Below are positions 1-14,241 of a DNA stretch of 64,000 bases, in pieces (position 1 is the first letter of the stretch; each line of letters starts with the position of its first letter). The position numbers and the translations under genes were made by a program. This stretch comes from Rhodospirillaceae bacterium. GTDB taxonomy: Bacteria; Pseudomonadota; Alphaproteobacteria; CACIAM-22H2. The notes beneath the pieces are model-generated. The model did not search any database. It was not told where the DNA came from and worked only from the letters and a program-made list of their open reading frames with translations. The DNA is taken from NCBI GenBank assembly GCA_022843945.1, contig JALHMR010000003.1, positions 124,001 through 188,000 on the forward strand, written 5' to 3'.

Positions 1-132
1 GCGGAAGGTCGCGCCGTGGTGCTCGATGTGCGACACGCGCTCATGGTCGGTGATGTGCGTCGTGTAGCCGCCCTTCACGTCCGCATAGCAGTAGAGATCG
101 CAGCCAGGGTGCTGCCAACGGCAGTAGCTCAT
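1..132 (-). CDS. hypothetical phage protein, N-terminal part only
   Basis: An open frame starts at ATG 132 and runs off the left edge, giving 44 visible residues. The start overlaps the stop of the upstream gene as ATGA, the junction used throughout this operon, which supports it as real. The visible part begins MSYCRWQHPGCDLYCYADV and is rich in Cys and His, so a metal site is possible. The family is not recognised. Confidence 0.5.
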   Translation of the reverse strand, partial: MSYCRWQHPGCDLYCYADVKGGYTTHITDHERVSHIEHHGATFR

Positions 133-389
133 GCCGCATTCCCCGGCGTCGGCGCCTGCCATACCGGCTTGACCGACATAGACTTGTGCTGCTGCGTCTC
201 CATCACCTGCTCCAGGTCCCCTGTCTTGAATTCCTGTAGGCGTAGCTTCCCGCCTTCATCGCCTGTGCAGAGCACGACGGCGGTTGTTGGCCCCAGGCCA
301 CGCACCACCAGCATGTTCGGGCCGGCGCCCTTGGCGCGCACGACGGCGCCGCGGGCGAAGCCCAGCGAGGGGATTGCGGTCACGCTCAT
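129..389 (-). CDS. hypothetical phage protein, 86 aa
   Basis: This small protein has a Gly/Val-rich first half (residues 8-45) that could form a small beta-barrel, and a polar C-terminus. It sits in the leftward operon between the C5 methyltransferase, whose stop overlaps its start by 4 bases, and the partial gene at the left edge. No family or function is recognised. Confidence 0.6.
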   Translation of the reverse strand: MSVTAIPSLGFARGAVVRAKGAGPNMLVVRGLGPTTAVVLCTGDEGGKLRLQEFKTGDLEQVMETQQHKSMSVKPVWQAPTPGNAA

Positions 390-2326
390 GCCGCCTGCCT
401 CTTGGCCTTAGGTTTCGCCGCCGGCCGTGCTGCATCGGCCATGATCGCGCCGACGCAGGCCTTCATCTTGGCCACCGACACGGCGTTGCCGATTTGCTTG
501 ATCTTCTCCGTCTTGGTGCCAGCGAATTCGTACCGAGCCTCTTCGCTGTTGAAGCCCATCGCCGCTGCCAGCTCGTGCGGCTCGAGCATGCGGAACAGGA
601 TGTCGTAGCCGTCCACACCTTCGACCAGGTCTACATGACCCGTGGCCGCAATCGTCGGTGCCGGGTTGGCGATGTCGTGGACGCGCGGCGCCTGGCCGGG
701 ACGCTCGCCATGCTGGGCGGTGATGAAAGACAACTCGCCACGATTGGCGCCCGTCACGGCCGGTAACGGCTCATCCGGCCCGCGCACCCGGTCGCTCGTA
801 TCGTGATGTGTCACCGGCATGACCATGGCGAACTCGCCGCCCTTGGCTGTCGTCATCGTGGGTAAGGGCTGCTCAACGTCGCGTGGGTCTGGGCCGCCAT
901 TGCTGTTCGTGACCGGCACCACCATCCCGAACCGGCCTTTGCTGGTCACAGTGTCCAGCGGCACCTCGGCGCTCTTGCACGTCTCACCGGATCCGCTGCC
1001 GTAGTAGGGCGCGATCAGCACGTGACTCTGCTTGGCGACCTGCGTCGGTGTGGGCTCGTCGACCGCTCTCGGTGCGCCACCAGCGTGCCGGGAGAGGACG
1101 AAGGGCTCAACGAGCATGGGCCGTGCGCAGCCTGGGCGCCTGTCAGTCCCTGCGCCGCCTGTCGTAATCGTGGGGAGCGGATCACCTTCGCCACGCGGCG
1201 CGCCGGAGCTGTGCTGCGACAGAATCACCGCATCCGCTTTCCAGACCCCGCCCTTGGTGTCCAGCGTCGGCACTGGTGCACTCGATGCGCCAACGGCCTT
1301 GTTGCCCTTGCGGCCGTTTAGGATCAGCGGCTCGGCCACAGCGATCCGGCTGTCCGTCGCGGTCAGTGTCGGTGCAGGCTCGTCAACGCTGCGCGGCGCC
1401 GGTCCGCCGGTGTGCTGACGCGTCGAGAGGATGATCGGCTGTGCTAGCGCGATATGCCCTCCGCCCTTGTTGCCCCCGGTGCAGATCGTCGGCAACGGCC
1501 CGTCCACGCTCTGGGCGCTCATGTGGTTGCGCAGGATGACCAGGAACGGCTCGGGCCAGTTGAACTTGACCGCGCCGGCATGGATGCGCGCCAGCGTCTT
1601 CGGAGACAGCGGCTTCTTGCGGTTGAAGATCGACTTGCCACGGATGTCCCAGTCGATGATTTCCCGTGCTGCGCGCCAGGGCTTCGCCGTCGGGAAGAGC
1701 GCCAGGTTTTGCCCGGGCTTCTTCATATGCGTCGCGACCGGCCATTGCAGCGGTCTGCCATCGTTGCGCGCCATCAGGATGAAGCGCTGCCGGGTCGTGG
1801 CGTCGCCGTAGTCGGCCGCGTTGAGCTTCCGCCACTCGGGCTCGTAGCCCAGCTTGCGGATGACGTCGACCCAGGCTTTGAAGTATTCGCCCTTGCGCGC
1901 CTTGATCGGCTTGCCCGACCGCGCATCGACCGGGCCCCAGCCGATGAACTCCCAGACGTTCTCGATGATCATCCGCTTGACCCGAAGCTCGGTCAGCCAG
2001 GTGATGATGTGCCAGGGGTCGCTGCGCTGCTGGTCGCTGGTCGGCTTGCCGCCGCGCGCCACGCTGTGATGCGTGCAGGTCGGGCTTGCCATCAGCAGGT
2101 CGAGATAGCCCTCGGGCACCACCTGGTGCGGGCGCACGGTCGCGATGTCCTGGCAGTAATGCCGGGCCTCGGGGTGGTTGCGCTTGTGCGTCTCGATCGC
2201 CACGTCCCAGTGGTTGAGGCAGACCAGCTCCATCTCCAGCCCGAGATCCGCCAGCGCCCGCGCGCAGCCGGTTGAGGAGCCGCCGGCACCGCAGAGCAGA
2301 TCGGCAACGAGATACTTACGACCCAC
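386..2326 (-). CDS. phage DNA (cytosine-5) methyltransferase with tandem-repeat target domain
   Basis: This is a C5-type DNA methyltransferase. Motif I is VADLLCGAGGSSTG near residue 7, motif IV is the variant SPTCTHHS with the catalytic Cys near residue 84, motif VI is IIENVWEF near 121, motif VIII is QRFILMARNDG, and the last motif is QIGNAVSVAKMKA near the C-terminus. Between residues about 270 and 570 the target-recognition region consists of nine degenerate repeats of about 30-40 residues with the core R-x-V-D-E-P-x-P-T-x-T. It is about 646 aa, longer than the usual 350-450. GTG 2326 is chosen as start because it overlaps the upstream stop (TAGTG) and has GGGGGAGAAGG just upstream; ATG 2350 is the alternative. 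Target sequence and the presence of a cognate nuclease cannot be told; none is seen nearby. Confidence 0.9.
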   Translation of the reverse strand: MGRKYLVADLLCGAGGSSTGCARALADLGLEMELVCLNHWDVAIETHKRNHPEARHYCQDIATVRPHQVVPEGYLDLLMASPTCTHHSVARGGKPTSDQQRSDPWHIITWLTELRVKRMIIENVWEFIGWGPVDARSGKPIKARKGEYFKAWVDVIRKLGYEPEWRKLNAADYGDATTRQRFILMARNDGRPLQWPVATHMKKPGQNLALFPTAKPWRAAREIIDWDIRGKSIFNRKKPLSPKTLARIHAGAVKFNWPEPFLVILRNHMSAQSVDGPLPTICTGGNKGGGHIALAQPIILSTRQHTGGPAPRSVDEPAPTLTATDSRIAVAEPLILNGRKGNKAVGASSAPVPTLDTKGGVWKADAVILSQHSSGAPRGEGDPLPTITTGGAGTDRRPGCARPMLVEPFVLSRHAGGAPRAVDEPTPTQVAKQSHVLIAPYYGSGSGETCKSAEVPLDTVTSKGRFGMVVPVTNSNGGPDPRDVEQPLPTMTTAKGGEFAMVMPVTHHDTSDRVRGPDEPLPAVTGANRGELSFITAQHGERPGQAPRVHDIANPAPTIAATGHVDLVEGVDGYDILFRMLEPHELAAAMGFNSEEARYEFAGTKTEKIKQIGNAVSVAKMKACVGAIMADAARPAAKPKAKRQAA

Positions 2327-2736
2327 TAAACCTTCTCCCCCACCTGGCAATTCTCCTCACGCGCGATCTTCTGCGCCATCAGCACGGCTGACCGGGCCAA
2401 CGACCCCGGCTTGAACCACTCCGCCATCTCGTCGAGCGTGTGCCCGTCCTGCAGATGACGGGATAGGGTTTCGCCTATGTCATCGGCGTATCGGTGGAGG
2501 CTTGAGCCCCATTTGCCGGCGTGTTTTGTCGGTCGCAGGAATATCTCACCGGGTGCGCCGTCGTCGGGATGGAAGCCGACACGGATATAGATCGAGCGCC
2601 ACTCCGTGCGGTCCAGGCTCGGCTGCCACATGAACTTTTCGGCAATCGCCGGCCGGCGAGACGGCAGCAACCTCCTCTTGGGCGGCATGCTCCCGGTGCC
2701 TGAGGCTGGCTGTTGAGGATGAAGGGTGTCGGTCAT
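2326..2736 (-). CDS. TSCPD-domain-like phage protein
   Basis: Residues about 45-115 resemble the TSCPD domain found at the C-terminus of some ribonucleotide reductases and as stand-alone phage proteins: a YIRVGF strand, a GEIFL strand, a KWGSSLHRYADDIGETLS segment and a following helix with LDEMAEWF. The first 35 residues are Pro/Arg-rich and probably disordered. Stand-alone copies have no firmly known role. It overlaps its neighbours by ATGA and TAGTG, so it is co-translated with the two methyltransferases around it. The family match is moderate. Confidence 0.55.
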   Translation of the reverse strand: MTDTLHPQQPASGTGSMPPKRRLLPSRRPAIAEKFMWQPSLDRTEWRSIYIRVGFHPDDGAPGEIFLRPTKHAGKWGSSLHRYADDIGETLSRHLQDGHTLDEMAEWFKPGSLARSAVLMAQKIAREENCQVGEKV

Positions 2737-3533
2737 GCCAACACCTGACCTTGGGTTCCAGGGTTAGCGATGAACATGTCGCCCTGACGCTGAGCTTGTT
2801 CGATGCGCCGACAGGCTGTGTCGAAGTAGAGCTTCTCGATCTCGATGCCGATGAAGCGATAGCCCATCGTGACGGCGGCAACGCCTGTGCTGCCGGCGCC
2901 CATGTAGGGGTCGGCGATTACCCCCCCCCGAGCGATTCGAGCTTGCTCGATGCACCAGCGCATGAGCGGCAGCGGCTTCTGGGTTGGGTGAACGCGGGAT
3001 TGCCCGGCGGTCACCTCGTCGCGCGCCTGCGATCCGACACAGACGCCATCCCACAGCAGACGATAGATGCGCATCGGGCGGGGCGGATCATCGTTGATCC
3101 ACGCTGCCTCACCGTCGCCTTGATCGCGTATCTTGCCGGTCGGCACCTTGTCCCAAACCAACGACGTGCCGGCAGGCAGGCGGTGCCCGAACCGATGAGC
3201 GCCCCAGAGCAACACCCGCGGCGCCAGCGCCAGCAACGGCGCAGGATCAAACGGCTTGTCATCACCAACGATCTCATCAGGCCAGACAGTCGCAAGGCCC
3301 GTGCTGTGCAGAGCCCCAGAGCTCCGCGCCTTTGCCGCATTCGTCGAGGCGCGCGAACCGCAACGGGGCGGCGTCACAGCGCGGATGCCTCCGGCGTGTA
3401 CGACGTTCGTATTCTGCCGCTGCCCATACGGCGGATCGCTCACCACCGCATCGATGCCTGTGATCTGCGGGATGATCTCCCGGCAATCCCCCAGGTACAG
3501 CGTGGCGTTGCCGATGATGACGGGCTGGGTCAT
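2733..3533 (-). CDS. phage DNA amino-methyltransferase (N4-cytosine/N6-adenine)
   Basis: The N-terminal VVSDPPYGQ (motif IV, DPPY) comes before the C-terminal SAM site ADPYMGAGSTGVAA (motif I), the beta-class order. The HPTQKPLPLM segment before motif I is also typical of this class. Length is 266 aa. ATG 3533 is chosen because it makes the ATGA overlap used throughout the operon; a longer frame runs upstream but only through the neighbouring gene. A run of nine G on the coding strand (2931-2939 on the + strand as C) falls just before motif I. DPPY is compatible with either N6-adenine or N4-cytosine. Confidence 0.88.
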   Translation of the reverse strand: MTQPVIIGNATLYLGDCREIIPQITGIDAVVSDPPYGQRQNTNVVHAGGIRAVTPPRCGSRASTNAAKARSSGALHSTGLATVWPDEIVGDDKPFDPAPLLALAPRVLLWGAHRFGHRLPAGTSLVWDKVPTGKIRDQGDGEAAWINDDPPRPMRIYRLLWDGVCVGSQARDEVTAGQSRVHPTQKPLPLMRWCIEQARIARGGVIADPYMGAGSTGVAAVTMGYRFIGIEIEKLYFDTACRRIEQAQRQGDMFIANPGTQGQVLA

Positions 3534-4255
3534 GCCATCACCCACCGGTCGCGCGCCACTCGCCTGCCCGCGCCGCGCTGCAGCGTCTGCCTGATCTTCG
3601 CCCGATAGTTCGGGTTCCGTCGGGCCTTCGGGTGCTCGGACAGCGCGCGATAGAGATCCTGCACCGGCACCGGGCCGTGATACCGGCGCAGCACCTGCGC
3701 CACCGCCTCGCGCCAAGTCGGTTCCAACGCTTCGATCAGTACGCCCCGCGGGATGCGCAGCGGCACGAAATGCCCGGCGATGCCGCAGTAGGCGAGCACG
3801 TCGGCATCGTCCATGCCGTAGGCGGCCAGCACGACCGGCGCGCCGCTGTTCGCCACCTCACCTTTCTTGGTGGTGCAGAGCGATCCGTCCGGCTTGTGAA
3901 AGATCAGCCTGTTCTGAAGGAACAGGAGCGCCGTTGCTCCGCTCCACACTTCGCGGAACCATGCCGTCTCGGTGCGCGCATGCACGAGGGCCGTCCCGTG
4001 CCCGTGCTCTCGCATCTTCGCCAGCCAGAGGCCGACCACGTAGCGGTTGAACGGCGGATTCAGCCAGACCCGCCCGAACCAGGGCTGGGCAAGTCCGTCG
4101 TCCTTCTCGGTCAGCGTCACCCGGGCGCAGTCCCAGGGCCGGGGATCGTTACCGCACGGATCGAGGTCGAACACGCCCAACGGATCGAGGATGTGTCGCG
4201 GGGTGATATGCACCTGGCTGGCGCCGACGGTCTTTTGATGGGAGCCGAGGGTCAC
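3530..4255 (-). CDS. phage Dam-type N6-adenine methyltransferase
   Basis: This is a 241-aa protein of the phage Dam family. It opens with the thin SHQKTVGASQVHITPRHIL region, followed by FDLDPCGNDPRPW, and has the catalytic motif VWLNPPFNRY (NPPF). The GTG at 4255 overlaps the upstream stop as GTGA and gives the usual family length; the longer upstream extension lacks family features. It would methylate adenine in phage or host DNA, often as protection from restriction. Confidence 0.85.
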   Translation of the reverse strand: MTLGSHQKTVGASQVHITPRHILDPLGVFDLDPCGNDPRPWDCARVTLTEKDDGLAQPWFGRVWLNPPFNRYVVGLWLAKMREHGHGTALVHARTETAWFREVWSGATALLFLQNRLIFHKPDGSLCTTKKGEVANSGAPVVLAAYGMDDADVLAYCGIAGHFVPLRIPRGVLIEALEPTWREAVAQVLRRYHGPVPVQDLYRALSEHPKARRNPNYRAKIRQTLQRGAGRRVARDRWVMA

Positions 4256-4593
4256 GCGCGCCTCGCCTGCATTTGACGCCAGCGCTTCCACGGTGCTCCC
4301 GGTGCACGGTCTAACTTCGGCGGGTTGCTGCGGAGCATCCCCATGCGCGCATTCGACATCTGCTCGTTGCTGCTCAAGCCACACGCCCCTCGCCCATCGC
4401 AGTACCAGTGCATCACCCAGGGCTTGCGCTTGCCGCCGCAGATCGAGACGCCGACGCCCCAGTCGTACTGAACGCCACCGCATCGCCAGCACCGACGACG
4501 AGCGCGCCCTTCGCAGTCAGCTCCGTTGCGCCATGAGCGGTGCGCGACATAGGTGCCCCGATCCAGCTCGGCCGAGATGTTGCGCCGGGTCAC
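4252..4593 (-). CDS. hypothetical Cys/Arg-rich phage protein, 113 aa
   Basis: A basic protein with a possible zinc-binding set: C near residue 27, CWRCG near 35, a single C near 52, C near 64 and C near 70. It is locked between two methyltransferase genes by 4-base overlaps on each side. No family is recognised. The Cys spacing suggests an HNH-like or zinc-ribbon fold, but no clear catalytic motif is visible. Confidence 0.6.
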   Translation of the reverse strand: MTRRNISAELDRGTYVAHRSWRNGADCEGRARRRCWRCGGVQYDWGVGVSICGGKRKPWVMHWYCDGRGACGLSSNEQMSNARMGMLRSNPPKLDRAPGAPWKRWRQMQARRA

Positions 4594-5207
4594 GCGTAAT
4601 CCCCCGGGCGCTCGAGCGACTTCCGACAGGGAGCGGCAAACTTCTCCGTCTCATTGCCCCAGGCGTCCCAGCCCGGCCGCGATGTCCGGGCGAACAGCTC
4701 GCACCGTGGATCGGTCGGGAACATCCGCTCCAGGTTTTCGTGCATCTCATCGGGCTTCCGGCTGTGCTCCCGCACCGGGGCCACAATCAGGTTGCGTACG
4801 TTCTTGGCTCGCGGCTTCGGCTCGCCGATTGTGCCGACGAGGAAGAATTCAGAGGCGCAGCGGAACAGGTAACCGGTGCCGAATGCCCACTTCTCGCCTG
4901 TACTCGACTGCTTCGCCCACGATCCAGCCGTCTTGTAGCGAAAGCCCCAGGCCTTCATCACAGAGAGGGCCTTATCGAGCATCGGCTGCACGGCCCACAT
5001 GACCAGCATGCAGTCCGGCCCAGCCAACTGGTTGACCGGCAGGGCCTCGATCTCGGCCGTCGTCATCAGGCGATAGTGCTTGCTCGCCGACTTGTGCTGG
5101 TTGTGCTCGCCCCAGGTGCGGAAGCGCCAAGGCGGATCGGCCAAGATCACGCGATAGCGGAGAGGCGTCAGGCCATCGAACGGCCAGGGCTGTGCCGGCG
5201 CCGTCAT
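4590..5207 (-). CDS. MT-A70 family adenine methyltransferase
   Basis: A 205-aa MT-A70 protein: VILADPPWRF (DPPW catalytic motif) near residue 20, HYRLMTTAEI, a MLVMWAVQP strand, and a C-terminal KPDEMHENLERM segment typical of the family. It catalyses N6-adenine methylation of DNA in phages. It is the fourth methyltransferase in the leftward operon, with ATGA overlaps on both sides. Confidence 0.9.
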   Translation of the reverse strand: MTAPAQPWPFDGLTPLRYRVILADPPWRFRTWGEHNQHKSASKHYRLMTTAEIEALPVNQLAGPDCMLVMWAVQPMLDKALSVMKAWGFRYKTAGSWAKQSSTGEKWAFGTGYLFRCASEFFLVGTIGEPKPRAKNVRNLIVAPVREHSRKPDEMHENLERMFPTDPRCELFARTSRPGWDAWGNETEKFAAPCRKSLERPGDYA

Positions 5208-5410
5208 GCCACCACCCGCTCCGGGCTCTCGCCCATTGCCCCGTTCCGCAGCTCAAGCAAATCCTGCCGTGCCAGCCAGGCGGTGAGCAGCGCTGCTCTG
5301 TCCCCTCGCTTCTTCGCCGCCCTTAGGGACTCGTGCTCTTTGTGGATCAGGGAGGTGAAGACGGAGGGATCGTCAGCACCCGGCCCAGGCTTTTGGGTTT
5401 CGAGGGTCAA
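5204..5410 (-). CDS. hypothetical phage protein, 68 aa
   Basis: A short, mostly helical, charged protein. Start is read as TTG 5410, which overlaps the stop of the next gene as TTGA and has GGGGGA upstream. The in-frame extension above it is not used because it crosses a separate gene. It overlaps the MT-A70 gene by ATGA. No family is recognised. Confidence 0.5.
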   Translation of the reverse strand: MTLETQKPGPGADDPSVFTSLIHKEHESLRAAKKRGDRAALLTAWLARQDLLELRNGAMGESPERVVA

Positions 5411-5556
5411 GACTCGTCCCCCTTCGCCATGATGCTGAGGCCGAGCCAGATGCAGGCGGCACCCAGGCACAACATGATGCCCGGCGGCGTATGAGCGATC
5501 ATGCCGGCGGCGGCCCACACGTTCGCGATGATCAGGCGGGCGCTTGACTTCGTCAT
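5407..5556 (-). CDS. small membrane protein, 49 aa
   Basis: The frame from ATG 5556 to TGA 5407 encodes MTKSSARLIIANVWAAAGMI followed by a second hydrophobic stretch with the core IMLCLGAACIWLGLSIM and a polar tail. One or two membrane spans are likely. Both ends use the operon's 4-base overlaps (ATGA, TTGA), which is the main evidence that it is translated. Function unknown. Confidence 0.55.
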   Translation of the reverse strand: MTKSSARLIIANVWAAAGMIAHTPPGIMLCLGAACIWLGLSIMAKGDES

Positions 5557-5795
5557 CGCCCCGCCCTCCGCCTGCGGCCCTTGCTCAGCGCCTGCAGCTT
5601 CTTCCGCGCCGCTGCCCGTACCTCTTCAGCCAGGCGTCGGTGCGTGGCCTTGTAGATCCGCTCGTCGAGACGGCGGCGCTGTCCGAAGTTGCCTTTGACA
5701 CCCAGGCTGTCGCGTCTCTGCTTGAGCGCTGCGATCTCGGGATAGTCCCGGGAACCTTTACGGGTTGAGCGGGGTTTATGGCGTTGCGGGGTCAT
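5553..5795 (-). CDS. hypothetical basic phage protein, 80 aa
   Basis: Very basic (many Arg/Lys), with a helical core around residues 20-70 and an Arg-rich tail (KGRRRRAGR). It could bind nucleic acid, but no motif proves that. ATG 5795 is chosen because it overlaps the previous stop as ATGA; a second ATG two codons upstream is possible. Confidence 0.55.
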   Translation of the reverse strand: MTPQRHKPRSTRKGSRDYPEIAALKQRRDSLGVKGNFGQRRRLDERIYKATHRRLAEEVRAAARKKLQALSKGRRRRAGR

Positions 5796-6121
5796 GCGCA
5801 TGTGATGTCTCCCTGAACACGAGGCGAATGCCCGAGCGCCCAAGCATCGCGACGGAACTGATGCAGGGCGTCCGCCTCTACCGTGTCGAAGGTCCAGTTC
5901 TTCAGGCCGAGCGCCTCGTAAAGATTGAAGGCTGCGTAGGCGCCGGCGGTGCTGTCGCGGCGGCAGCCATGCGCCCAAAGGACCGCGTGAATGAGCTTCT
6001 CGGCCTGCTCGCGACTAAAGAACCGCTCATCGTCACGGTAACTGCCGCCTGGCTCCTCGCCCTTGTCGAGCAGCGCCTTGACATCGTCGACCATGAAGTG
6101 ATTGAGCAGCGACCAGCTCAT
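5792..6121 (-). CDS. hypothetical phage protein, 109 aa
   Basis: An acidic, soluble protein with a region FSREQAEKLIHAVLWAHGC in the middle. It is linked to both neighbours by ATGA overlaps. No family is recognised and no metal or catalytic motif is visible. Confidence 0.6.
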   Translation of the reverse strand: MSWSLLNHFMVDDVKALLDKGEEPGGSYRDDERFFSREQAEKLIHAVLWAHGCRRDSTAGAYAAFNLYEALGLKNWTFDTVEADALHQFRRDAWALGHSPRVQGDITCA

Positions 6122-6423
6122 GCGTCACCCCTCTTGGCCTTCGCCAGCATCTTGGCCGCATGCTCTTTAAGGCCGTCGCCGATCATGCTGAGCATCCCCG
6201 CAACCTCGGCGGCGATCTCTGCCTTGCCGCGTGTCGGGTGCGCCGCACGCGTGTAGTCGGCTTCGAGGTGGTCGATGATGGCGCTCTGCAGCACCAGCGA
6301 TATGTCGGCGGCTTCGCAGGGCTTCGATGTCTTCGCGCATTCAACCTCAGCGAAGGCGATCACGCGGCGGCCGATAGCGGCCAGCTCTGCGGAGAACGCC
6401 TCGGTGTAGCGTTCGCCGCTCAT
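6118..6423 (-). CDS. hypothetical phage protein, 101 aa
   Basis: A mostly helical protein with conserved-looking acidic segments and a Lys-rich end. It overlaps the HD-like gene upstream and the next gene downstream by 4 bases each. No family is recognised. Confidence 0.6.
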   Translation of the reverse strand: MSGERYTEAFSAELAAIGRRVIAFAEVECAKTSKPCEAADISLVLQSAIIDHLEADYTRAAHPTRGKAEIAAEVAGMLSMIGDGLKEHAAKMLAKAKRGDA

Positions 6424-7184
6424 GCCGCCAGCCCTCGGTGGAAGACATCAGAGCAGGACCGCATCAGCTCGGGATCGCCGTCGGTCAGGCAGATCACGAA
6501 GCTCTGCTTCTCGCGCAGATAGACCTGCGCCCGCTCCGGGTCACGCTCGCTCAGCGATTTGCAGTTGTCGTAGATGTCGGCGAGCTTGATCGTCTTCGCC
6601 TCTTTCGGCGCCGGGATGAGCCGCTGATATTCCAGCTTCAGGCGCGCATCTCGGGAAATGCGATGATCGCCCCCGTAGGCCTTGGTCACCCACGCGACCA
6701 GGCCCGCGACCTCGTCGCCGAATTCACGCACCAGCGTTTCGTGCGTGACCTTGGTGTCCTCGACCAGCGTGCAGCCGAGCGCCGTGGCGAGCTCCATGGG
6801 CACCATCATCGAGACGCGCGCCCAGCCGATCAGCGGCGAGGTGTAGTTGCTCAGCAGGTATTCCTGCCACTCGCGCGAGGCCACGTTCATCGCGCCAGGC
6901 GGCCGGCCAGCGCGCTTCTTGCCATCGGCCGGCATCGGCACCACGGCGAGCGGGTTGGCGGGATCTGCCTCGGCGCCGGGAAACAGCGCCAGCTGCGTCT
7001 TGATCTGATGCGGGTCGGGCTCGAAGGTCGGCACGGTGATCGTGCCCTCGGGTTTCTTCGCGCGGCCGGCGTCCTCGGCCATGCGCCGCGCCTGCGCGCG
7101 CGCATCGGCCTGCGCCTGGGCGACCTCGGCCACCTGCCGATCCGCCCAACCCGGTTCACCCATCTTCGGCTCACGCTCAGCCAC
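6420..7184 (-). CDS. phage protein with SpoT/Mesh1-like HD fold lacking the HD dyad
   Basis: A 254-aa protein. Residues 1-90 are a polar, helical, Ala/Gln/Arg-rich lead. GRPPGAMN near 94 starts a basic segment. Residues about 130-215 match the pattern of SpoT/Mesh1-type (p)ppGpp hydrolases: LATALGCTLVEDTKVT aligns with the usual L-A-A-A-L-L-H-D-V-V-E-D-T, then FGDEVAGLVAWVTK, then KTIKLADIYDN. The metal-binding His-Asp pair is Cys138-Thr139 here, so hydrolase activity is doubtful, while the following Glu-Asp and the KLAD motif are kept. It may be a binding or regulatory relative. Placement in the early operon gives no further clue. Confidence 0.55.
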   Translation of the reverse strand: MAEREPKMGEPGWADRQVAEVAQAQADARAQARRMAEDAGRAKKPEGTITVPTFEPDPHQIKTQLALFPGAEADPANPLAVVPMPADGKKRAGRPPGAMNVASREWQEYLLSNYTSPLIGWARVSMMVPMELATALGCTLVEDTKVTHETLVREFGDEVAGLVAWVTKAYGGDHRISRDARLKLEYQRLIPAPKEAKTIKLADIYDNCKSLSERDPERAQVYLREKQSFVICLTDGDPELMRSCSDVFHRGLAA

Positions 7185-7207
7185 CGAATATCACCCCAAT
7201 ATTTAAT

Positions 7208-8014
7208 TCAGTCGCGCCGCTCGACCACGATCTCAACGCTGCGCTTGAACATCATCGACAGGTCGCTGCCGTAACTCGCGTTCACCTGATCGGCGTGGAA
7301 GCGCGTCGGCGCGCTGAGACGAACAAACCGCGCATCGACGCTCGCCACGCTCAGCGCCTCAAACCACGAGCGATAGAGCACATCCCCGAAGCGCTTTTGC
7401 AGCTTGGGCTGCTGCTCGAACCACCAGCGCTCCACATCCGCTCGTCCGTTGCCTCGCATGCCCTCCGCCAGGGCCTCGCCCGCCGGGGCTGGCGGTGCCT
7501 GTCGCTCACTGCTCGCGCGCGCGAAGGTTCTTTGATGGTTCAATGACGGATCATCCATATGCCCCGCCACAGTTGACACCGGGGGGGCGTCAGCCTGACG
7601 GGGGGGTGCGTCACGGGTGGCACCGGGGGGCGTCAGGCTGGCACCGGGTTTTGACGGGGGGGCTGGTGTCAATCTGACGGAAGGCGTCAATCTGGCACCT
7701 CCCGCAGGCTTGGCGGGGGGGCGCGTCCGCGCCAGCGCATCGGGCGGCGCCAGGAGAAAGAACGCATCGCGGTCCCGGCCGCCCGTGCCCTTGATGTACC
7801 GCGGCTCGCGCCGGATGAACCGCTCCTCGATCAGATAAGCGATGTTGCGCTGCACCGTACGCTCGCTCTGCTCGGTCATGTGCTGCAGCCGCGCGTTGCC
7901 GGGCCAGCAGCAGCCGTCCTCGTCGGCGAAGTTGGCCAGCGCCACCAGCACCTGCTTGGCACCGGGATCGCCAATGGTCATCGACCACGCCCAGGTCATC
8001 GCCTCAACGCTCAT
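7208..8014 (-). CDS. phage replication initiator (helix-turn-helix plus DnaA N-terminal-like domain)
   Basis: 268 aa from ATG 8014 (ATGA overlap with the upstream gene). Residues about 5-90 form an HTH_36-type winged helix (MTWAWSMTIGDPGAKQVLVA, then LQHMTEQSERTVQRNI). Residues about 100-160 are a Pro-rich linker. Residues about 195-265 resemble DnaA domain I: WWFEQQPKLQKRFGDVLYRS, then LSAPTRFHADQV. This layout is typical of phage or plasmid initiators that bind origin repeats and load the host helicase. The linker DNA carries iteron-like repeats, as the lambda O gene does. Confidence 0.75.
   Translation of the reverse strand: MSVEAMTWAWSMTIGDPGAKQVLVALANFADEDGCCWPGNARLQHMTEQSERTVQRNIAYLIEERFIRREPRYIKGTGGRDRDAFFLLAPPDALARTRPPAKPAGGARLTPSVRLTPAPPSKPGASLTPPGATRDAPPRQADAPPVSTVAGHMDDPSLNHQRTFARASSERQAPPAPAGEALAEGMRGNGRADVERWWFEQQPKLQKRFGDVLYRSWFEALSVASVDARFVRLSAPTRFHADQVNASYGSDLSMMFKRSVEIVVERRD
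7587..7699. repeat. iteron-like direct repeats, candidate phage origin
   Basis: Five imperfect copies of G-C/T-GTCA-x-x-CTG-G/A-C start at 7587, 7608, 7630, 7666 and 7684; the copy at 7608 is the weakest. Several are followed by ACCGGG or runs of G, including G7 tracts. They lie in the low-complexity linker part of the initiator gene, the place where lambda-type phages keep their origin. They might only reflect repeated Leu-Thr-Pro codons. Confidence 0.45.
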
Positions 8015-9117
8015 TCGTGCGGCCACTCCCGATGCAGCTGGCCGTCGAGCAGCGCGCCGGCCTCGGCCTTGTCGACGCGGCGCATGTAGACATCGCCGAT
8101 ACGGTAGTGGCCATCGTTCTCGCGATCGGCGCAGACGTGGCGCACCAGGCCGCGGCGCATATCGCCACCGAGATCGCCGCCGGCGACGACGCGCGTCTCG
8201 GTCCAGCCGCCCCATTGCTTGAAGAAAAACGCCACGCCGGCCTCGGCGCACTGGTCGCGCAGCGAGCGCGCCCAGGCCGGGTGCATCGGCCGAGCGCCAT
8301 CGCCGCTCTCGCCGCCGGTGATCACCCAGTCCAGCCACTCGCCCGGCTGCATGTCGGGCGGCCCGGTCAGGGCGTTCTCGCAAAGGACGTTGTCGCCGAC
8401 CTTCTCGCCGGTCGGGATCATGGTCAGGTCGATCGGCCCGATCAGGGGCTCCGCCGAGATGAACCGGACCGCCGCAGGCGTCTTCAGCAGGTGCGGGATA
8501 CGCTCGTCGGCGGCATCCTGGTTTTCGGTTGAGACGCCCAGCCAGACGTTCGGCAAAGGCGCGTGATGCACAACGGCGGATTTCGCATCGACCGATGCCG
8601 AGGTTCGGTCCGGCACGAGGACGTCGATAGCCTCGCTGACTCGCGCCTGCCATGCCTTGACGTTCGGGGCTGGGTGCTCCGCGGCGAAGTACGCCCGCAT
8701 CCTATCCGCCCGCTTCGTCAGGATCTGGAACGTGTGTTGCGGGGCCAGGGCCATGACGGCGAACACCTTGTCGATGTCCTCGTCGCTCAGCTTCTCGTGG
8801 AACAGGTCCGAGGTGCTGTTGACGAAGATGCGTGAGGGCCTGCCTTCGGCCTTCGCCTTCTTCGATCCTTTCCAGCGCAGGGGCCAGTCGAGTTGATCGG
8901 GGATAAGCGCGACCTTGCCCGTCCACCGGGGCTCAAGGCCTTTCGATGTGGCGAAGCCGGCACCCCACATGGGCTTGCCTGTCTGCGGATTCCGGCCCGA
9001 GAACCGGGCGGCCATCTGCTCGGCATAGCAGTGCCGGCAGCCTTCGCTGATCCTGGTGCAGCCCCGCACCGGGTTCCAGGTGGCGTCGGTCCACTCTATG
9101 GTGGTACCTTGGCTCAC
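8011..9117 (-). CDS. Gp37/Gp68 family (DUF5131) phage protein
   Basis: 368 aa. The N-terminus has the family signature TIEWTDATWNPVRGC, with the Cys set C-x6-C-x2-C (GCTRISEGCRHCYAE) that resembles a radical-SAM cluster site. Later come FVNSTSDLFHE, TFQILTKRADRM, NVWLGVSTENQ, RFISAEPLIGPIDL and WVITGGESG, all characteristic. The biochemical role in phages is unknown. GTG 9117 is preferred over TTG 9132, which would begin only 3 bases from the tRNA-Arg gene. Confidence 0.85.
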   Translation of the reverse strand: MSQGTTIEWTDATWNPVRGCTRISEGCRHCYAEQMAARFSGRNPQTGKPMWGAGFATSKGLEPRWTGKVALIPDQLDWPLRWKGSKKAKAEGRPSRIFVNSTSDLFHEKLSDEDIDKVFAVMALAPQHTFQILTKRADRMRAYFAAEHPAPNVKAWQARVSEAIDVLVPDRTSASVDAKSAVVHHAPLPNVWLGVSTENQDAADERIPHLLKTPAAVRFISAEPLIGPIDLTMIPTGEKVGDNVLCENALTGPPDMQPGEWLDWVITGGESGDGARPMHPAWARSLRDQCAEAGVAFFFKQWGGWTETRVVAGGDLGGDMRRGLVRHVCADRENDGHYRIGDVYMRRVDKAEAGALLDGQLHREWPHE

Positions 9118-9135
9118 GACACCACCCCGCAAATC

Positions 9136-9212
9136 TGGCGCGACCGGCAGGACTCGAACCTGCAGCCTCCGGGTCCGGAACCCGGCGATCTATCCGGTTG
9201 AGCTACGGTCGC
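9136..9212 (-). tRNA. tRNA-Arg(CCG)
   Basis: The minus strand folds as a complete tRNA: acceptor GCGACCG with CGGTCGC, anticodon stem CCGGG/CCCGG with loop TTCCGGA (anticodon CCG), T-stem GCAGG/CCTGC, and encoded CCA. One D-stem pair is C-T instead of C-G. It lies inside the prophage early operon, between the Gp37/Gp68 gene and a second tRNA-like gene. Confidence 0.9.
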
Positions 9213-9295
9213 AAGAGGTGAGTGCGGGCCGGGCTGATTACCGGCCGTCGTGTCGATAGGCGTGGACTGACGCCTCGTTTTAGAGGTCCGGCATA

Positions 9296-9368
9296 GGGGA
9301 GCGGCAGGATTTGAACCTGCGACCCCCGCAGCAGAAAGCGGTGCTCTACCAGACTGAGCTACGCTCCT
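9296..9368 (-). tRNA. atypical tRNA (isotype unclear; CUG or UCU in an 8-base loop)
   Basis: The minus strand has tRNA-like acceptor (AGGAGCG with CGCTCCC, first pair A-C), D-arm GCTC/GAGC, and T-arm GCAGG-TTCAAAT-CCTGC. The anticodon arm is one base short: CCGC-TTTCTGCT-GCGG, a 4-bp stem with 8-base loop. The anticodon could be CTG (Gln) or TCT (Arg). CCA is not encoded. It may be a decayed tRNA or a special phage tRNA. Confidence 0.6.
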
Positions 9369-9436
9369 TGCACCCTGGCCGGCTCTCGACACGCTGATTA
9401 CGGGGCGCGTCCCCGTCGCCGCACTCATAAACATTT

Positions 9437-9715
9437 TCAGGTATCCAGCGCCCTGCGATACATCTCGAGCAGTTCGTCCTGCTCTCGCCTGTCGGCTACT
9501 TCCATCTTTCGCAGACGGATGAGCTGCCGCATGATCTTGGTATCGAAGCCATTGCCCTTGGCTTCGGCGAAGACCTCGCGGATGTCGGCTGCGAGTTCGG
9601 CCTTCTCCGCTTCCAGCCGTTCGATGCGCTCGACGAAGGAGCGCAGGCGATCAGCAGCGACAACGCCCGTGCTGTTGTGGCCTGGGCCGGCGGTTTCGGT
9701 TGCGGGTTCGCTCAT
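9437..9715 (-). CDS. GapR-like (DUF2312) nucleoid-associated protein
   Basis: 92 aa. It carries the near-invariant core ADRLRSFVERIERLEAEK, then AEAKGNGFDTKIMRQLIRLR, then a helical tail. GapR proteins of alphaproteobacteria bind overtwisted, AT-rich DNA and assist topoisomerases during replication. A phage copy in the replication operon probably assists or interferes with DNA topology during phage replication. Host genomes usually have their own copy as well, which is not in this window. Confidence 0.9.
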   Translation of the reverse strand: MSEPATETAGPGHNSTGVVAADRLRSFVERIERLEAEKAELAADIREVFAEAKGNGFDTKIMRQLIRLRKMEVADRREQDELLEMYRRALDT

Positions 9716-10149
9716 AGCGCGTACACCGCTTTCTGCTCGCCCTCGCCTGCCAACACACGGGAAGCCAGTGCGGCGACGCGTTCTTCCTGCTCCTTGCGGT
9801 CCTCGTCACCGGGCGGTTCGGCCATCGCCTCGAGGATTTCGACAGCCTGCCTGTGGCAGTCGGCAACGGTCGGTGCGCAGGCATCGCAGAGCGTCGGGCC
9901 GTCCCCGCAGCGATGTCCCAGCTCGCCGAAGAACAGGATCTTGGAACAGCCCTCGCAGGTTGCGGCCAGCTCACCGCCGAACCGCTCCAGGAGCGCGGCG
10001 CTCAAACCTTCGATTTCGGCCAGGGCCTTGCGGAACGGCGCCATAGCCGCGCTGATCGCCGCGCCGGCCTTGCCGAGCGCCTCAAGCTGCTCTTGCAACT
10101 GCTGGCGCTCCTGATCGGTGATCTTCGGTGCGGTTTCGGTATCAGCCAC
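9712..10149 (-). CDS. hypothetical zinc-ribbon phage protein
   Basis: 145 aa. Helical ends flank a central Cys-rich element: CEGCSKILFFGE near residue 65, then HRCGDGPTLCDAC near 79. The spacing fits a treble-clef or zinc ribbon. The gene overlaps the GapR-like gene by ATGA. The family is not recognised. Confidence 0.65.
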   Translation of the reverse strand: MADTETAPKITDQERQQLQEQLEALGKAGAAISAAMAPFRKALAEIEGLSAALLERFGGELAATCEGCSKILFFGELGHRCGDGPTLCDACAPTVADCHRQAVEILEAMAEPPGDEDRKEQEERVAALASRVLAGEGEQKAVYAL

Positions 10150-10179
10150 GATGCCCCCTCTTGATCGGCGTTATGCGGT

Positions 10180-10479
10180 CTAGCCGATGACGACGCCGCG
10201 CCAGGCGTGCAGCACTTGGGTGTATTCTTCGGTCTGAAATTCTTTGCCCGTCTCGTCGCTTATCTCGGTCCGGGCAGGCTTGATGTTTTCCTCGCGCGGG
10301 AGGTCGACATGCTCGACCTGGTCGATCGAGTAACGGACGGTCGGGCCATAACATCCATACTCGGGCGAGCGGAAGATGACGGGCTCGCTCGGGTCGAACG
10401 CCTTCAGCTTCTCGACGAGCTGTCCGACCGTCATGGTCCGCGCCGTTCGTTCGCTCCGCTCGTAGAATGTGTTGGCCAT
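10180..10479 (-). CDS. hypothetical phage protein, 99 aa
   Basis: It begins MANTFYERSERTARTMTVGQ and has a mixed alpha/beta look; similar short proteins with a TVGQLVEKL-type start are common in phages of this class and have no known role. ATG 10479 abuts the upstream gene's stop (TGATG). Confidence 0.6.
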   Translation of the reverse strand: MANTFYERSERTARTMTVGQLVEKLKAFDPSEPVIFRSPEYGCYGPTVRYSIDQVEHVDLPREENIKPARTEISDETGKEFQTEEYTQVLHAWRGVVIG

Positions 10480-10862
10480 CAGCGCGTGACTCCTGTGGCA
10501 TCGAGCCTCGCCTTCGGCAGGAGCCGGGCGTCCTCGTAGCCGTGGGGATGGATGGCAGACAGCCGGCGAGCGAACTCGCGATTGCTGGCGTCGGTCACGG
10601 GCGCCGCCTCGGTCACGGGCCGCCCCGGCTTCTTCTTCTGCCGCTCCGCGTTGAGCACCCACAGCCGGTCCCGCTGATAGGGCTCGCCACCCTCGGCGAT
10701 GCTCACCTGGCCTGCGGTCTTCATGTTCCGCAGCGTGTAGAGCACGACGTACTTTGAGAGGCGCGTGACGGTGACGAGCTCGTGGACCTTCAGGCCGATC
10801 TCGCCTGTCTGCTCCAGGGCTTTGGCGATTTGCTCGCGTGCGGTGACGGCCGGGGCGATCAT
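10479..10862 (-). CDS. winged-helix-like phage protein
   Basis: 127 aa. Residues about 8-60 look like a winged helix: REQIAKALEQTGEIGLKVHE, then TRLSKYVVLYTLRNMKTAGQ and a WVLN strand. The tail is basic and Pro-rich with a GRPVT hook. It probably binds DNA; a specific site cannot be named. ATGA overlap with the GIY-YIG gene upstream. Confidence 0.6.
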   Translation of the reverse strand: MIAPAVTAREQIAKALEQTGEIGLKVHELVTVTRLSKYVVLYTLRNMKTAGQVSIAEGGEPYQRDRLWVLNAERQKKKPGRPVTEAAPVTDASNREFARRLSAIHPHGYEDARLLPKARLDATGVTR

Positions 10863-11461
10863 GCCAACACCTGCGGCGTAATGCCTTCAGGCGGCGCCAG
10901 CATGATGCTTTGAAGGCTCTCGCCGCCTTCCACGCGCGCCACGAACTCGTCGAACACAAAACGATTGCGCCAGATCATCTGGTACCAGACGCTCACCTGC
11001 TTGTTGGTGGCCGCCAGCGCGATCAGGTTCGGCGCGCGGGGATCGCTCGAACCCTCAAACCAGTTCTGTGCTGTTCGGGGGCAGACACCGCCATCGCGAG
11101 CGATGTCGGCGTATCGCGTGGCCTCGTCCGGATAGCCAAGCGACAGTGCCGCCCTGAATGACAGCGACCACCCTTCAGACCATCGGCCATTCAAGCTTCG
11201 GCGCCTCTGATGATGAGGGGTGCCGAAGGCGTCGATGAATTGCTCCACCTCTATACAATCCGCAAACCACTCGCCGCGCACACGGAACCGATCTAGGAAA
11301 GTGTGAATCTCGCGCTCCCTAACCTGATCGCCGTCGCAAGTCGCTATGATTCGAAGCTCGCCAGCCGCGCTTGTCTGCAGCGCCCTGAGGCGCGCATAGA
11401 GGTCGGTCGTGCTGCCGATCTTGATGGGTCCACCGTGACGCGCTTGAATGAAGTAGATCAC
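10859..11461 (-). CDS. GIY-YIG (T5orf172-type) protein with C-terminal helix-turn-helix
   Basis: 200 aa from GTG 11461, chosen because it overlaps the upstream stop as GTGA and has GGAGGGG 8 bases upstream; GTG 11470 is the alternative. Residues 1-70 match the T5orf172 branch of GIY-YIG nucleases: YFIQARHGGPIKIGSTTD, LYARLRAL and EREIHTFL with the conserved Glu. Residues about 110-150 look like an HTH (IARDGGVCPRTAQNWFEGS), which resembles one in the next gene. It may be a sequence-guided nuclease or a regulator. Confidence 0.7.
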   Translation of the reverse strand: MIYFIQARHGGPIKIGSTTDLYARLRALQTSAAGELRIIATCDGDQVREREIHTFLDRFRVRGEWFADCIEVEQFIDAFGTPHHQRRRSLNGRWSEGWSLSFRAALSLGYPDEATRYADIARDGGVCPRTAQNWFEGSSDPRAPNLIALAATNKQVSVWYQMIWRNRFVFDEFVARVEGGESLQSIMLAPPEGITPQVLA

Positions 11462-11862
11462 CCGCGCCACCCCTCCGGCTCGTCGAGCTGGTTGACCATG
11501 CTCTTGTCCGCGTGCGCCCCACCCCTGCCGCCGAATTGCTGAAACGCTTCAAAGGCGGCGCTCATCGCGTGCGCGAGTCGGGGGTCAACACCTGGCTCGA
11601 TGCCGGCCAGGCTCAGCCACGCCGCGGTGAAGTGCGGGAAGTGTTTCGAGCGGATCAGGCGGAAGGCGTAGAGATCGTCCGGGCCGTTCTGCCGATCGAG
11701 CCAGTTGCGCGCCGTGCGCAGCCCGCAGCCGCAGGCATTGGCGATCTTCTTCTCGGCGTGCCGCTCTTCACCGACATCCGCGCGCAGGGCATCGCTGCAG
11801 ACCTTGGCGATCAGGTCCGTGCTCAGCTCTTCGGTGCGGATCTGGGCGGCGGCAGCGCTCAT
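11458..11862 (-). CDS. helix-turn-helix phage protein, first gene of leftward operon
   Basis: 134 aa from ATG 11862. Residues about 35-65 (KKIANACGCGLRTARNWLDR) look like an HTH and resemble the HTH of the next gene, with the shared RTA-x-NW core. The C-terminus is Gly/His-rich. Being first in the leftward operon and DNA-binding, it could regulate it. TTG 11868 is an alternative start. AGGTGA lies 7-8 bases upstream of the ATG. Confidence 0.6.
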   Translation of the reverse strand: MSAAAAQIRTEELSTDLIAKVCSDALRADVGEERHAEKKIANACGCGLRTARNWLDRQNGPDDLYAFRLIRSKHFPHFTAAWLSLAGIEPGVDPRLAHAMSAAFEAFQQFGGRGGAHADKSMVNQLDEPEGWRG

Positions 11863-11873
11863 GCGCAATCACC

Positions 11874-11901
11874 TGCCGAATTCCGGCAACATGTTTCGGC
11901 A
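11874..11901. promoter_or_regulatory. inverted repeat ahead of leftward operon; gene-free stretch 11863-12170
   Basis: TGCCGAA (11874-11880) and TTCGGCA (11895-11901) form an inverted repeat, with a smaller AACATGTT palindrome between them, 12-39 bases upstream of ATG 11862. It could be an operator for the leftward operon. It does not resemble the GTAAG operators. The rest of the roughly 308-base gene-free stretch shows no convincing gene; a TACAAT at 12022-12027 might be a -10 box for the lipoprotein gene to the right. Confidence 0.35.
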
Positions 11902-12170
11902 CGATGGCTCTCGAAAACATCTTCGGCGGCTTTCGACCCTGCGATACCGCGACGCAGCGCGCTACCTTCATGCACATCGGAGTGACACCCACCCCGACCT
12001 GCAGGGAGGCGCAAAGTGCGGTACAATAGTCCGAGAGTAGCGCCGCCCCGCTCGACCACCCGGGAGGCTGGATGGTCGAACGAGGCGGAGCCCATCGGAG
12101 CGCCGGGAGAGAAAACGCCGCCGAAGTCGAGCCCGATGACCGGGATCAATTCATGCGAAGGAGATGCACG

Positions 12171-12377
12171 ATGAAACGATTGGCTGTCCTGACGATCCTG
12201 CTGCTGCCGCTCGCGGCCTGCGCGCACCCACAGGCGAACGAACCGGCCTACCGCCAGGCGTTCAACGAGTGCGACTACGAATCCGCCAAGGCCACGGCCT
12301 CGGCTCTGAGCGTGGCTGATCGCGTCGCGAACCGGGTCGACCTCAACAAGCGCTGCATGGCCCTCAAGGGTTACTGA
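12171..12377 (+). CDS. small predicted lipoprotein, 68 aa
   Basis: The N-terminus MKRLAVLTILLLPLAAC is a lipoprotein signal peptide with lipobox LAAC at Cys17. The mature part is about 52 residues, polar, with two more Cys (FNECDYESA, NKRCMA) that could pair. AAGGAG sits 7 bases before the ATG. It lies in the switch region on the strand opposite to the early operon, so it may be a gene expressed from the prophage state. Function unknown. Confidence 0.65.
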   Translation: MKRLAVLTILLLPLAACAHPQANEPAYRQAFNECDYESAKATASALSVADRVANRVDLNKRCMALKGY

Positions 12378-12514
12378 GCCTCGGTGGTCACGGAGCTGGA
12401 AATGGCGGATCTGATCGGAGCGGCCGGGGAGCATGCCCCGCTTGGGGCCTGGGCGGGTGTCGTATGACACGGCGCCCTGCTCGCTCAACATCACCGGCGG
12501 GACAGCGCGCAGCG

Positions 12515-12718
12515 TCATGCAACGCGCCTCGTCTGGGCCTGGGCATCGGCGCGCACGCCGACATAACCGGAGTCGACGACCCGCAGCACCCGGCCGTCAT
12601 CTGCGGACAGGACCCACTTGCGCTTGGCGAACGGGATCAGCGCACGCGCCTGTCCTTCGCTGCCCTTCTCGCTCGGGTAGTTGCCGTCGAGGGAGATGAA
12701 CCAACGGACGCGGGGCAT
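12515..12718 (-). CDS. hypothetical protein, 67 aa
   Basis: A frame from ATG 12718 (GGGAGG 7 bases upstream) encodes MPRVRWFISLDGNYPSEKGS followed by a strand-rich part with WVLSADDGRVLRVV. It might be a small beta-barrel. It lies between two lipoprotein genes that run the other way. Evidence is the start context and reasonable composition only. Confidence 0.4.
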   Translation of the reverse strand: MPRVRWFISLDGNYPSEKGSEGQARALIPFAKRKWVLSADDGRVLRVVDSGYVGVRADAQAQTRRVA

Positions 12719-12777
12719 CAGGCGGCCTCCCGATCTGATAGGCTGCAGCGGCAAACGCCATGGCTTGGGAGGGGTCG

Positions 12778-13188
12778 ATGAAACAGCTTGCCTGCGCGGC
12801 GGCGGTGCTGCTCGTCACTGGCTGCTACGGCGCGACGCCGATCACGATCCGAGAGGATGCGCCGCGCCGAGAGGCGATCTTCGAGATGCCCTATCTCACC
12901 CTGGCCCGCTGCGCCGTGCGTGAATACGACACGATCAGCGATCCCTTCATGTTCGCCGTCACGACGGGCAAGATCCGGGAGTTCCCGGACGACGGCTATG
13001 CCGAGGTCATCATCGGCCAGCAATGGACGACGGCACTTGCCGAGTTCCGCCGCGTCGATGAAGGCCGCACCGCCGTGCGCCTGTACGTCAACCTGGCTAT
13101 GGGCGGCGAGGAGCTGACGGCGCGCATGGATGGGGTACACAAGGACTGCGCCGAGGGGCGCCGCACAGGGAAGATCGGCCGTGGCTAA
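12778..13188 (+). CDS. predicted lipoprotein, 136 aa
   Basis: MKQLACAAAVLLVTGC is a lipoprotein signal with lipobox VTGC at Cys16. The mature region has two further Cys near residues 45 and 126. GGGAGGGG sits just before ATG 12778. It is the second lipoprotein in the switch region. It could be a lysogenic conversion gene altering the host surface; that is inference. Confidence 0.65.
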   Translation: MKQLACAAAVLLVTGCYGATPITIREDAPRREAIFEMPYLTLARCAVREYDTISDPFMFAVTTGKIREFPDDGYAEVIIGQQWTTALAEFRRVDEGRTAVRLYVNLAMGGEELTARMDGVHKDCAEGRRTGKIGRG

Positions 13189-13199
13189 GAGGGCACGCA

Positions 13200-13397
13200 T
13201 TAAGCGGCCCTCTGCGGTGCTGGCACAATGTCCGGCCGGAGCAGGTGCGGCGGGGTGCCGGTGAGGTTTGAGACGGCCTTTACGTGGCGAGGCGGAATGC
13301 GCTTCCACTGCGACACGGCTTGCGTCGTGACGCCGCAGGCGTCGGCAATCGCCGTTACGCCTTTCCTTTCACGAGCCAAGCGGAGGCCTTTGTCCAT
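13200..13397 (-). CDS. Cro-like helix-turn-helix regulator
   Basis: 65 aa. Residues about 15-50 form an HTH: VTAIADACGVTTQAVSQWKR followed by IPPRHVKAVSNLTG, the pattern of YdaS/Cro-type phage regulators. The gene runs divergently from the repressor-like gene at 13482; the palindrome at 13408-13424 lies 11-27 bases upstream of its ATG, so it is likely controlled through it. Confidence 0.75.
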   Translation of the reverse strand: MDKGLRLARERKGVTAIADACGVTTQAVSQWKRIPPRHVKAVSNLTGTPPHLLRPDIVPAPQRAA

Positions 13398-13407
13398 AGC
13401 CCCGCAA

Positions 13408-13424
13408 GGTAAGACAGTCTTACC
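13408..13424. promoter_or_regulatory. operator copy 1 (GGTAAGAC-A-GTCTTACC)
   Basis: A perfect 8+1+8 palindrome between the divergent Cro-like and repressor-like genes, near the start of the Cro-like gene. The same half-site GTAAGAC recurs at 13456-13470 and 14189-14205. The likely role is a binding site for one or both regulators. Confidence 0.7.
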
Positions 13425-13455
13425 ATGATGTCAAATCAATCTGTCGGTGCCGGAC

Positions 13456-13470
13456 GTAAGGCCGTCTTAC
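13456..13470. promoter_or_regulatory. operator copy 2 (GTAAGGCCGTCTTAC)
   Basis: A 15-base palindrome with one mismatch in the left half-site relative to copy 1. It ends 11 bases before the ATG of the repressor-like gene, so binding would block its expression (autoregulation). Confidence 0.65.
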
Positions 13471-13481
13471 ATACTCCGGCT

Positions 13482-13883
13482 ATGTCTAGGTATTCGCGAG
13501 AACATATCGCCGCGATGATCAGGGAGCGCCGAGAGGCGCGGAATGAGACGCAGCAGGATGTTGCGGACGCCCTGGGCAAGCGCGACAAAACCGTGATCGG
13601 CTGGGAAAAGGGCAAGTATTTTCCCAACGTCATGGAGTTCTTCGATCTTTTGGACCACCTCGGGATCCCTTACGAGATCGGCGACTCGAACATCGACGCT
13701 ACCGTGCGGGCCGCCGTTCAGTTCGCGATCGAGGAGCTCGGGCACCCGGCGGGCGATCAGCTAAAGGCTGGTCTGGTCGAGATGGCTGTTCAGAACGGGC
13801 GCGAATTTCGGCGAAAACTCGAGGGGGATGACCCAGTTCCTCCACCACGAATCGAACCGTCTCCCAAAAAAGCCGGTCGCTGA
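13482..13883 (+). CDS. repressor-like helix-turn-helix protein (XRE/Cro-C1)
   Basis: 133 aa from ATG 13482. Residues about 5-65 form an XRE-type HTH: IAAMIRERREARNETQQDVA, then ALGKRDKTVIGWEKGKY. The C-terminal part (70-133) is a helical region ending Pro-rich, without the LexA/S24 peptidase Ser-Lys dyad, so RecA-induced self-cleavage is not expected. The family is consistent with the lysogeny regulator. The longer in-frame start at 13425 would place operator copy 2 inside the gene and is less likely. Confidence 0.7.
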   Translation: MSRYSREHIAAMIRERREARNETQQDVADALGKRDKTVIGWEKGKYFPNVMEFFDLLDHLGIPYEIGDSNIDATVRAAVQFAIEELGHPAGDQLKAGLVEMAVQNGREFRRKLEGDDPVPPPRIEPSPKKAGR

Positions 13884-13983
13884 AGCTACGTGCTTCCCCT
13901 CGGTGCGCGCGACTACGCTTCATTAACGCCTCCCCCTTTAGCCTGACCTGGCCCGCAAGGGCCGGTGGCTTGGTTATCCAGGG

Positions 13984-14030
13984 ACGAGGGCTCAGGAACC
14001 TCGTTGTCCGGAGCGCCCCCCAGCGCTCCG
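13984..14030. repeat. two adjacent stem-loops in gene-free stretch 13884-14241
   Basis: Stem 1 pairs ACGAGG (13984-13989) with CCTCGT (13999-14004). Stem 2 pairs CGGAGCGC (14009-14016) with GCGCTCCG (14023-14030) around CCCCCA. They lie 100-150 bases after the repressor-like gene. No run of T follows, so a simple intrinsic terminator is unlikely. They might end the repressor transcript or be part of a small RNA. Apart from these and the promoter with operator copy 3, nothing is seen in the stretch. Confidence 0.4.
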
Positions 14031-14207: not shown

Positions 14208-14241
14208 GCTTCTCGTTCGATACCTCACGGGGGACGACGAG

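Follow-up and report, generated by a model that had tools for sequence, protein, structure and literature searches.

Why does a temperate phage carry several unrelated DNA methyltransferases when nothing beside them can be recognised as a cognate restriction enzyme? The question is raised by a stretch of 64,000 nucleotides from a Rhodospirillaceae bacterium (contig C3, positions 124001–188000; hereafter the window), which overlaps a prophage of about 64.2 kb (C3:87670-151887) integrated at tRNA-Phe. On its minus strand, positions 386–5207 of the window encode four DNA methyltransferases, each from a different and unrelated family, with two small genes interleaved. An earlier note, made from the sequence alone, had proposed a broad anti-restriction or epigenetic-control module and not a restriction-modification system. 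We favour, with moderate confidence, the reading that several orphan methyltransferases jointly shield the phage DNA broadly from restriction.

The methyltransferase operon

The C5-cytosine DNA methyltransferase (386–2326) has a GTG start and 646 amino acids; its assignment follows from PF00145 (E = 2e-25), phrog_116 (E = 3e-65) and the C5 fold. Next to it is a small TSCPD-like protein of 136 amino acids (2326–2736), and then a beta-class amino-methyltransferase (2733–3533; PF01555, E = 2e-16), in which the DPPY motif comes first and the S-adenosylmethionine-binding motif is near the C-terminus. The latter has DpnA and CcrM among its PDB matches, is probably of the N6-adenine type, and belongs to class beta together with the non-specific M.EcoGII (PMC11551740). 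The phage Dam-type methyltransferase (3530–4255), with an NPPF motif and a GTG start, matches PF05869 (E = 4e-7) and was aligned with 11 homologues. It is followed by a small cysteine-containing protein of 113 amino acids without a family match (4252–4593) and by an MT-A70 methyltransferase with a DPPW motif (4590–5207; PF05063, E = 7e-30; METTL3-like PDB matches). The Pfam matches of all four enzymes exceed the curated cut-offs, and all four fall in phage methyltransferase families of PHROGs. Thus the four different enzymes of the earlier note are all real, and the locus holds more than the two different families by which a phage orphan-methyltransferase cluster is recognised. The fifth enzyme named there, with an NPPF motif, is in the rightward operon (15717–16493, plus strand), and its methyltransferase matches are to generic families in Pfam (PF05175, E = 5e-8) and to phage families in PHROGs (phrog_6263, phrog_15406).

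The gene ends were refined from the junction sequences (C5 start 2326, DPPY start 3533, Dam start 4255). With these likely starts, the junctions form a chain of GTGA, GTGA, ATGA, ATGA and TAGTG overlaps, each of 1 or 4 bases, in agreement with the earlier description of overlaps that include the two small genes. The chain goes on at both ends, with ATGA at 5204 upstream and at 386 downstream. Such a chain of start and stop junctions fits coupled translation of the operon.

The coupling is all that links the two small genes to the enzymes, and their proposed role as methyltransferase partners is not borne out. The score of the 2326–2736 protein against PF12637 is 16.4 bits (E = 0.012), below the curated cut-off of 22.8, and the protein has no relative in phage records, viral contigs or the open reading frames of relative loci. 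The 4252–4593 protein has none in phage records or in the open reading frames of relative loci, the viral contigs not having been scanned with it.

Conservation of the enzymes

The locus is apparently intact. Relatives were drawn from genome contigs, viral contigs and annotated phages, and each operon enzyme was compared with two close ones. The eight relative frames contain no internal stops, so decay of the frames in relatives, a danger raised with the earlier proposal, is not seen. Codon positions 1 and 2 differ in 14–32% of codons and position 3 in 43–58%, that is, the third position diverges about twice as much as the first two. Because position 3 diverges more and the relatives have no internal stops, the comparison indicates purifying selection, at family level, on the operon enzymes. 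The search gave no very close relative, hence recent decay of this particular copy is judged from its open frames alone. The catalytic motifs of the enzymes are retained; in the C5 enzyme, SPTC (motif IV, with the catalytic cysteine), ENV and GNAV are all present, the residue preceding the catalytic cysteine being variable across the family.

These data bear on the view that the genes are mosaic leftovers without current function. The strong differences in gene content among relatives are what such a view would lead one to expect, but the open frames, conserved motifs, third-position-biased divergence and coupled junctions are not, and we consider it very improbable.

The C5 enzyme and its module array

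Almost the full length of the C5 enzyme can be aligned with ARM81mr_p29 (31.7% identity, E = 3e-58), which is listed among 5-methylcytosine (m5C) enzymes with relaxed specificity (PMC5537653); it therefore has full-length homology to a characterised member of this group. The same study relates these phage C5 enzymes to JCM7686_0772, which gives partial protection of CCNGG, CCWGG, AGCT, CCGG and other sites (PMC3925955); the likeness of JCM7686_0772 is taken from that study (PMC5537653) and not from a sequence comparison. The two aligned enzymes differ in motif IV, SPDC in ARM81mr_p29 and SPTC here. They also differ in the number of P-x-P-T modules, which are present in both.

The prophage enzyme has nine P-x-P-T-like modules of about 32 residues each at residues ~259–568, with the motifs spaced by 31–42 residues. 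When the array region was shuffled 10,000 times, the mean number of P-x-P-T motifs was 0.4 and the maximum was 5. A hidden Markov model of the module finds from one to ten copies across 37 aligned C5 proteins, and four in ARM81mr_p29. The array is situated between the C5 core motifs and motif IX, the usual place of the target-recognition region in C5 enzymes. In two AlphaFold runs, a confident C5 catalytic core was obtained, matching known C5 structures, whereas over the array the predicted local distance difference test (pLDDT) score was about 30 and neither run yielded a usable fold model.

The Bacillus subtilis phages SPR and phi3T encode multispecific C5 enzymes (titles cited in PMC8936443), whose variable region contains more than one recognition module. 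The likeness to the prophage enzyme is in this description, several modules in a variable region, and not in sequence, and recognition of DNA by the modules is here putative. It is a doubtful suggestion that the nine modules form a DNA-reading array whose number and sequences set the count of methylated targets, in which case phages would retune cytosine protection by gain or loss of modules. Since the number of modules ranges from one to ten in the 38 proteins examined, the C5 family allows modular target recognition to be tested directly.

Probable protection from restriction

Protection as the joint role of the enzymes starts from what is directly observed: the identity of the genes, their catalytic motifs, the coupled junctions, the position between repressor and terminase, the conservation and, among the genes scanned, the lack of a recognisable cognate restriction enzyme. 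The activity, targets, timing and protective role are what we infer from these. Once the phage has infected a cell or been induced, four methyltransferases would be made from the leftward operon, and the rightward operon would probably supply the fifth. They would mark cytosine at C5 and amino groups (adenine N6, possibly cytosine N4) in different short sequences, new phage DNA would be methylated before packaging, and the virions would thereby withstand restriction in the next host. We prefer broad modification because of the homology between the C5 enzyme and a phage enzyme reported to have relaxed specificity. The protective part of the earlier proposal is thus supported, as is its view of the enzymes as orphans and not parts of a restriction-modification system, while regulation is retained as a secondary possibility. 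There is a precedent in the lactococcal 936 phages, whose orphan methyltransferases protect against HphI and DpnII (PMC4190342).

The composition of the prophage is consistent with exposure to restriction. Palindromes of 6 base pairs are under-represented, with an observed to expected ratio of 0.815 against 0.885 in the flanking host DNA, the expectation being that of a maximal-order Markov model. About 80 palindromes were tested, hence only the strongest carry weight: CAGCTG, the most notable 6-mer, occurs 2 times with 21.9 expected, and AGATCT, also strongly under-represented, 2 times with 17.7 expected.

Several points weigh against protection. The same shortage of palindromes suggests that methylation alone was not a complete shield. 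Of the phage methyltransferases assayed in one study, two were inactive in E. coli (PMC5537653), so activity cannot be assumed here. The host genome has one Mrr-type gene, whose product might cut methylated DNA. This and the following host genes come from single-family searches, which also gave a second C5 gene (contig C13), an N6_Mtase gene (contig C18) and no match to HSDR_N; MT-A70 is found in this genome in the prophage only.

A further point leads to the main rival explanation. Among the prophage enzymes of Sinorhizobium and Paracoccus, several have GANTC as their target and so mimic host CcrM, pointing to regulation (PMC5537653, PMC3925955). By analogy, one or more of the adenine enzymes here would copy the CcrM specificity and set the timing of phage replication or lysis, protection then being a side effect. 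The host indeed has a CcrM-like gene (contig C56), and a protein with a DnaA_N domain and a GapR-like protein are encoded on the strand of the operon. However, the Dam, DPPY and MT-A70 enzymes do not resemble PhiLM21_p027, which methylates GANTC, in their overall sequence; only the fifth enzyme matches it, weakly and by profile (24.9 bits). A cytosine enzyme of probably relaxed specificity is also left unexplained. We regard this explanation as rather unlikely.

Should all the enzymes prove active, a single operon would provide one temperate phage with several different methyl marks. In so compact a locus one could then test whether phages accumulate orphan methyltransferases as a way past many restriction systems together.

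Nuclease-like genes near the operon

No restriction-enzyme family has a match among the scanned genes in Pfam, NCBIfam or PADLOC. The earlier statement that no restriction nuclease is nearby holds in the sense of a cognate enzyme; otherwise it depends on where the window ends and needs correction. An HNH-like open reading frame, read by eye and recognised by no library model, comes after the C5 gene on its strand, the nearer end of the frame being about 0.33 kb outside the window (L005:19001-19672 in the region left of the window, or window positions -999 to -328). Two T5orf172/MUG113 genes are on this strand as well (10859–11470 and L005:16838-17254). None of these genes resembles a cognate type II restriction enzyme, and the operon can be called an orphan cluster among the genes scanned, with the reservation that the HNH-like frame is near.

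One may ask whether the locus is a restriction-modification or defence module in split form, whose nucleases, directed against competing phages, would be encoded by the HNH-like or T5orf172 genes. The position of these genes would suit it, and the DUF5131 protein at 8011–9132 matches the PADLOC candidate families PDC-M41B and PDC-M30B. But such phages commonly have HNH genes close to those of the repressor and terminase, and, given also the lack of restriction-enzyme matches, such a module is hardly to be expected.

The prophage and neighbouring genes

The prophage is bounded by a 16-base att core, TGGTGCCCAGGGCCGG. One copy lies inside the 3' end of tRNA-Phe at window positions 27872–27887 (attR), adjoined by the integrase, assigned by reading (26653–27840, plus strand); the repeat at C3:87670 (attL) falls just outside the tail genes. 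A third copy with similar flanks is at C3:67193, 20.5 kb to the left of attL (L203, L202). The segment C3:67193-87670 contains a predicted tRNA-Sec, together with genes whose products read as selenocysteine-synthesis proteins and formate dehydrogenase, and may form an island of its own at this tRNA-Phe site.

A Cro-like regulator at the start of the leftward operon (13200–13397, minus strand; PF14549/PF15943) and a CI-like repressor (13425–13883, plus strand; PF01381) separate the leftward operon from the rightward one, which carries the fifth enzyme. The methyltransferase genes are thus located between the repressor and the terminase and run toward the latter. The terminase, portal, protease and capsid genes, named by reading, are on the same strand to the left of the window (L005). 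Upstream of the methyltransferases on their strand is the gene of the GapR-like DNA-binding protein (9437–9715; PF10073, E = 2e-33), which recurs in the methyltransferase-cluster loci of four relatives (L010, L012, L013, L015). A scan of positions 1–14500 for sigma-70 promoters gave none, with a mean of 1.6 in shuffles, and is uninformative for this organism.

Some other features may be recorded. The C-terminal tail of the MT-A70 enzyme (4593–4670) shares CRKxLERPxDY with PhiLM21_p027 (L200:15739-16386), with 50% identity over 30 residues, the rest being unrelated. Within the leftward operon, tRNA genes are predicted at 9136–9212 and 9296–9368, both on the minus strand and one with an irregular four-base anticodon. 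The 14989–15717 protein has a long run of Cys-Ser-x repeats and no match in NCBIfam; its stop codon shares one base with the start codon of the fifth methyltransferase gene. Within the structural region (L005:787-7569), there are genes that read as CMP-KDO synthetase-like and FkbM-like methyltransferase genes, of the sugar or surface modification kind.

Occurrence in relatives and comparison with known systems

How common is such a locus? Among 183 other loci, surveyed for the five families, 131 have one family, 39 have two and 13 have three; four or more at one locus occur nowhere in this census except in the stretch studied here, with the proviso that the census loci are at most about 22 kb long and many are fragments. 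The relatives hold varying subsets of the families, in a mix-and-match manner. A search for near-identical relatives gave none among plasmids, and the matches to phages extend over about 1% of the query. In two Bradyrhizobium phages, homologues of the C5 enzyme have the same position upstream of the terminase.

The idea that the five-family repertoire is unique was rejected when the full records of 20 census loci were searched, as three large viral records (G026, G027, G033) hold all five families, spread out. In the IMG/VR record G026 (about 121 kb; the source of L023), the methyltransferase genes are scattered over about 49 kb, whereas in the prophage four families form one run. The portal and capsid proteins of the prophage have matches in this record beside its terminase. 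One match each for terminase, portal and capsid in the 120 of 121 kb read suggests that G026 is a single large phage, though a second, unrelated structural set would have gone unnoticed. Four families in one coupled run were not seen elsewhere in the sets examined.

Multiple orphan enzymes per phage are known. In Sinorhizobium, 39 methyltransferase genes were found in 31 (pro)phages, with at most four per phage (Phi3_AK83) (PMC5537653), compared to five, four of them contiguous, in the prophage studied here. In Paracoccus, 88 such genes were found in 59 prophages, 57 of the 88 between a ParB-like gene and the terminase (PMC6536676). Both surveys fit a continuum in the number of such genes. Location of orphan methyltransferases near replication or terminase genes has been described in both groups (PMC6536676, PMC5537653). 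With these multi-enzyme (pro)phages published, and the same five families in three viral records, the idea of a module of an unusual kind is not supported.

The closest described arrangement is the ParB-Tls modification locus of Paracoccus phages (PMC6536676, citing Iyer et al. 2013), in which orphan m6A/m4C (N6-methyladenine/N4-methylcytosine) and m5C genes are upstream of the terminase, as here. It raises the alternative that the enzymes are linked to packaging, being directed to the DNA that is packaged. The share of Paracoccus genes in that position and the place of our operon upstream of the terminase agree with this, but scanning of operon proteins gave no ParB domain, so that, as far as scanned, the genes are not framed by a ParB-like gene and the terminase. 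As a separate explanation it is quite unlikely; it is compatible with joint protection and does not exclude it. The prophage locus differs from ParB-Tls in this respect and in the direct coupling of four families in one run. Overall, it represents a known phage strategy in unusually dense form, and not a new kind of system.

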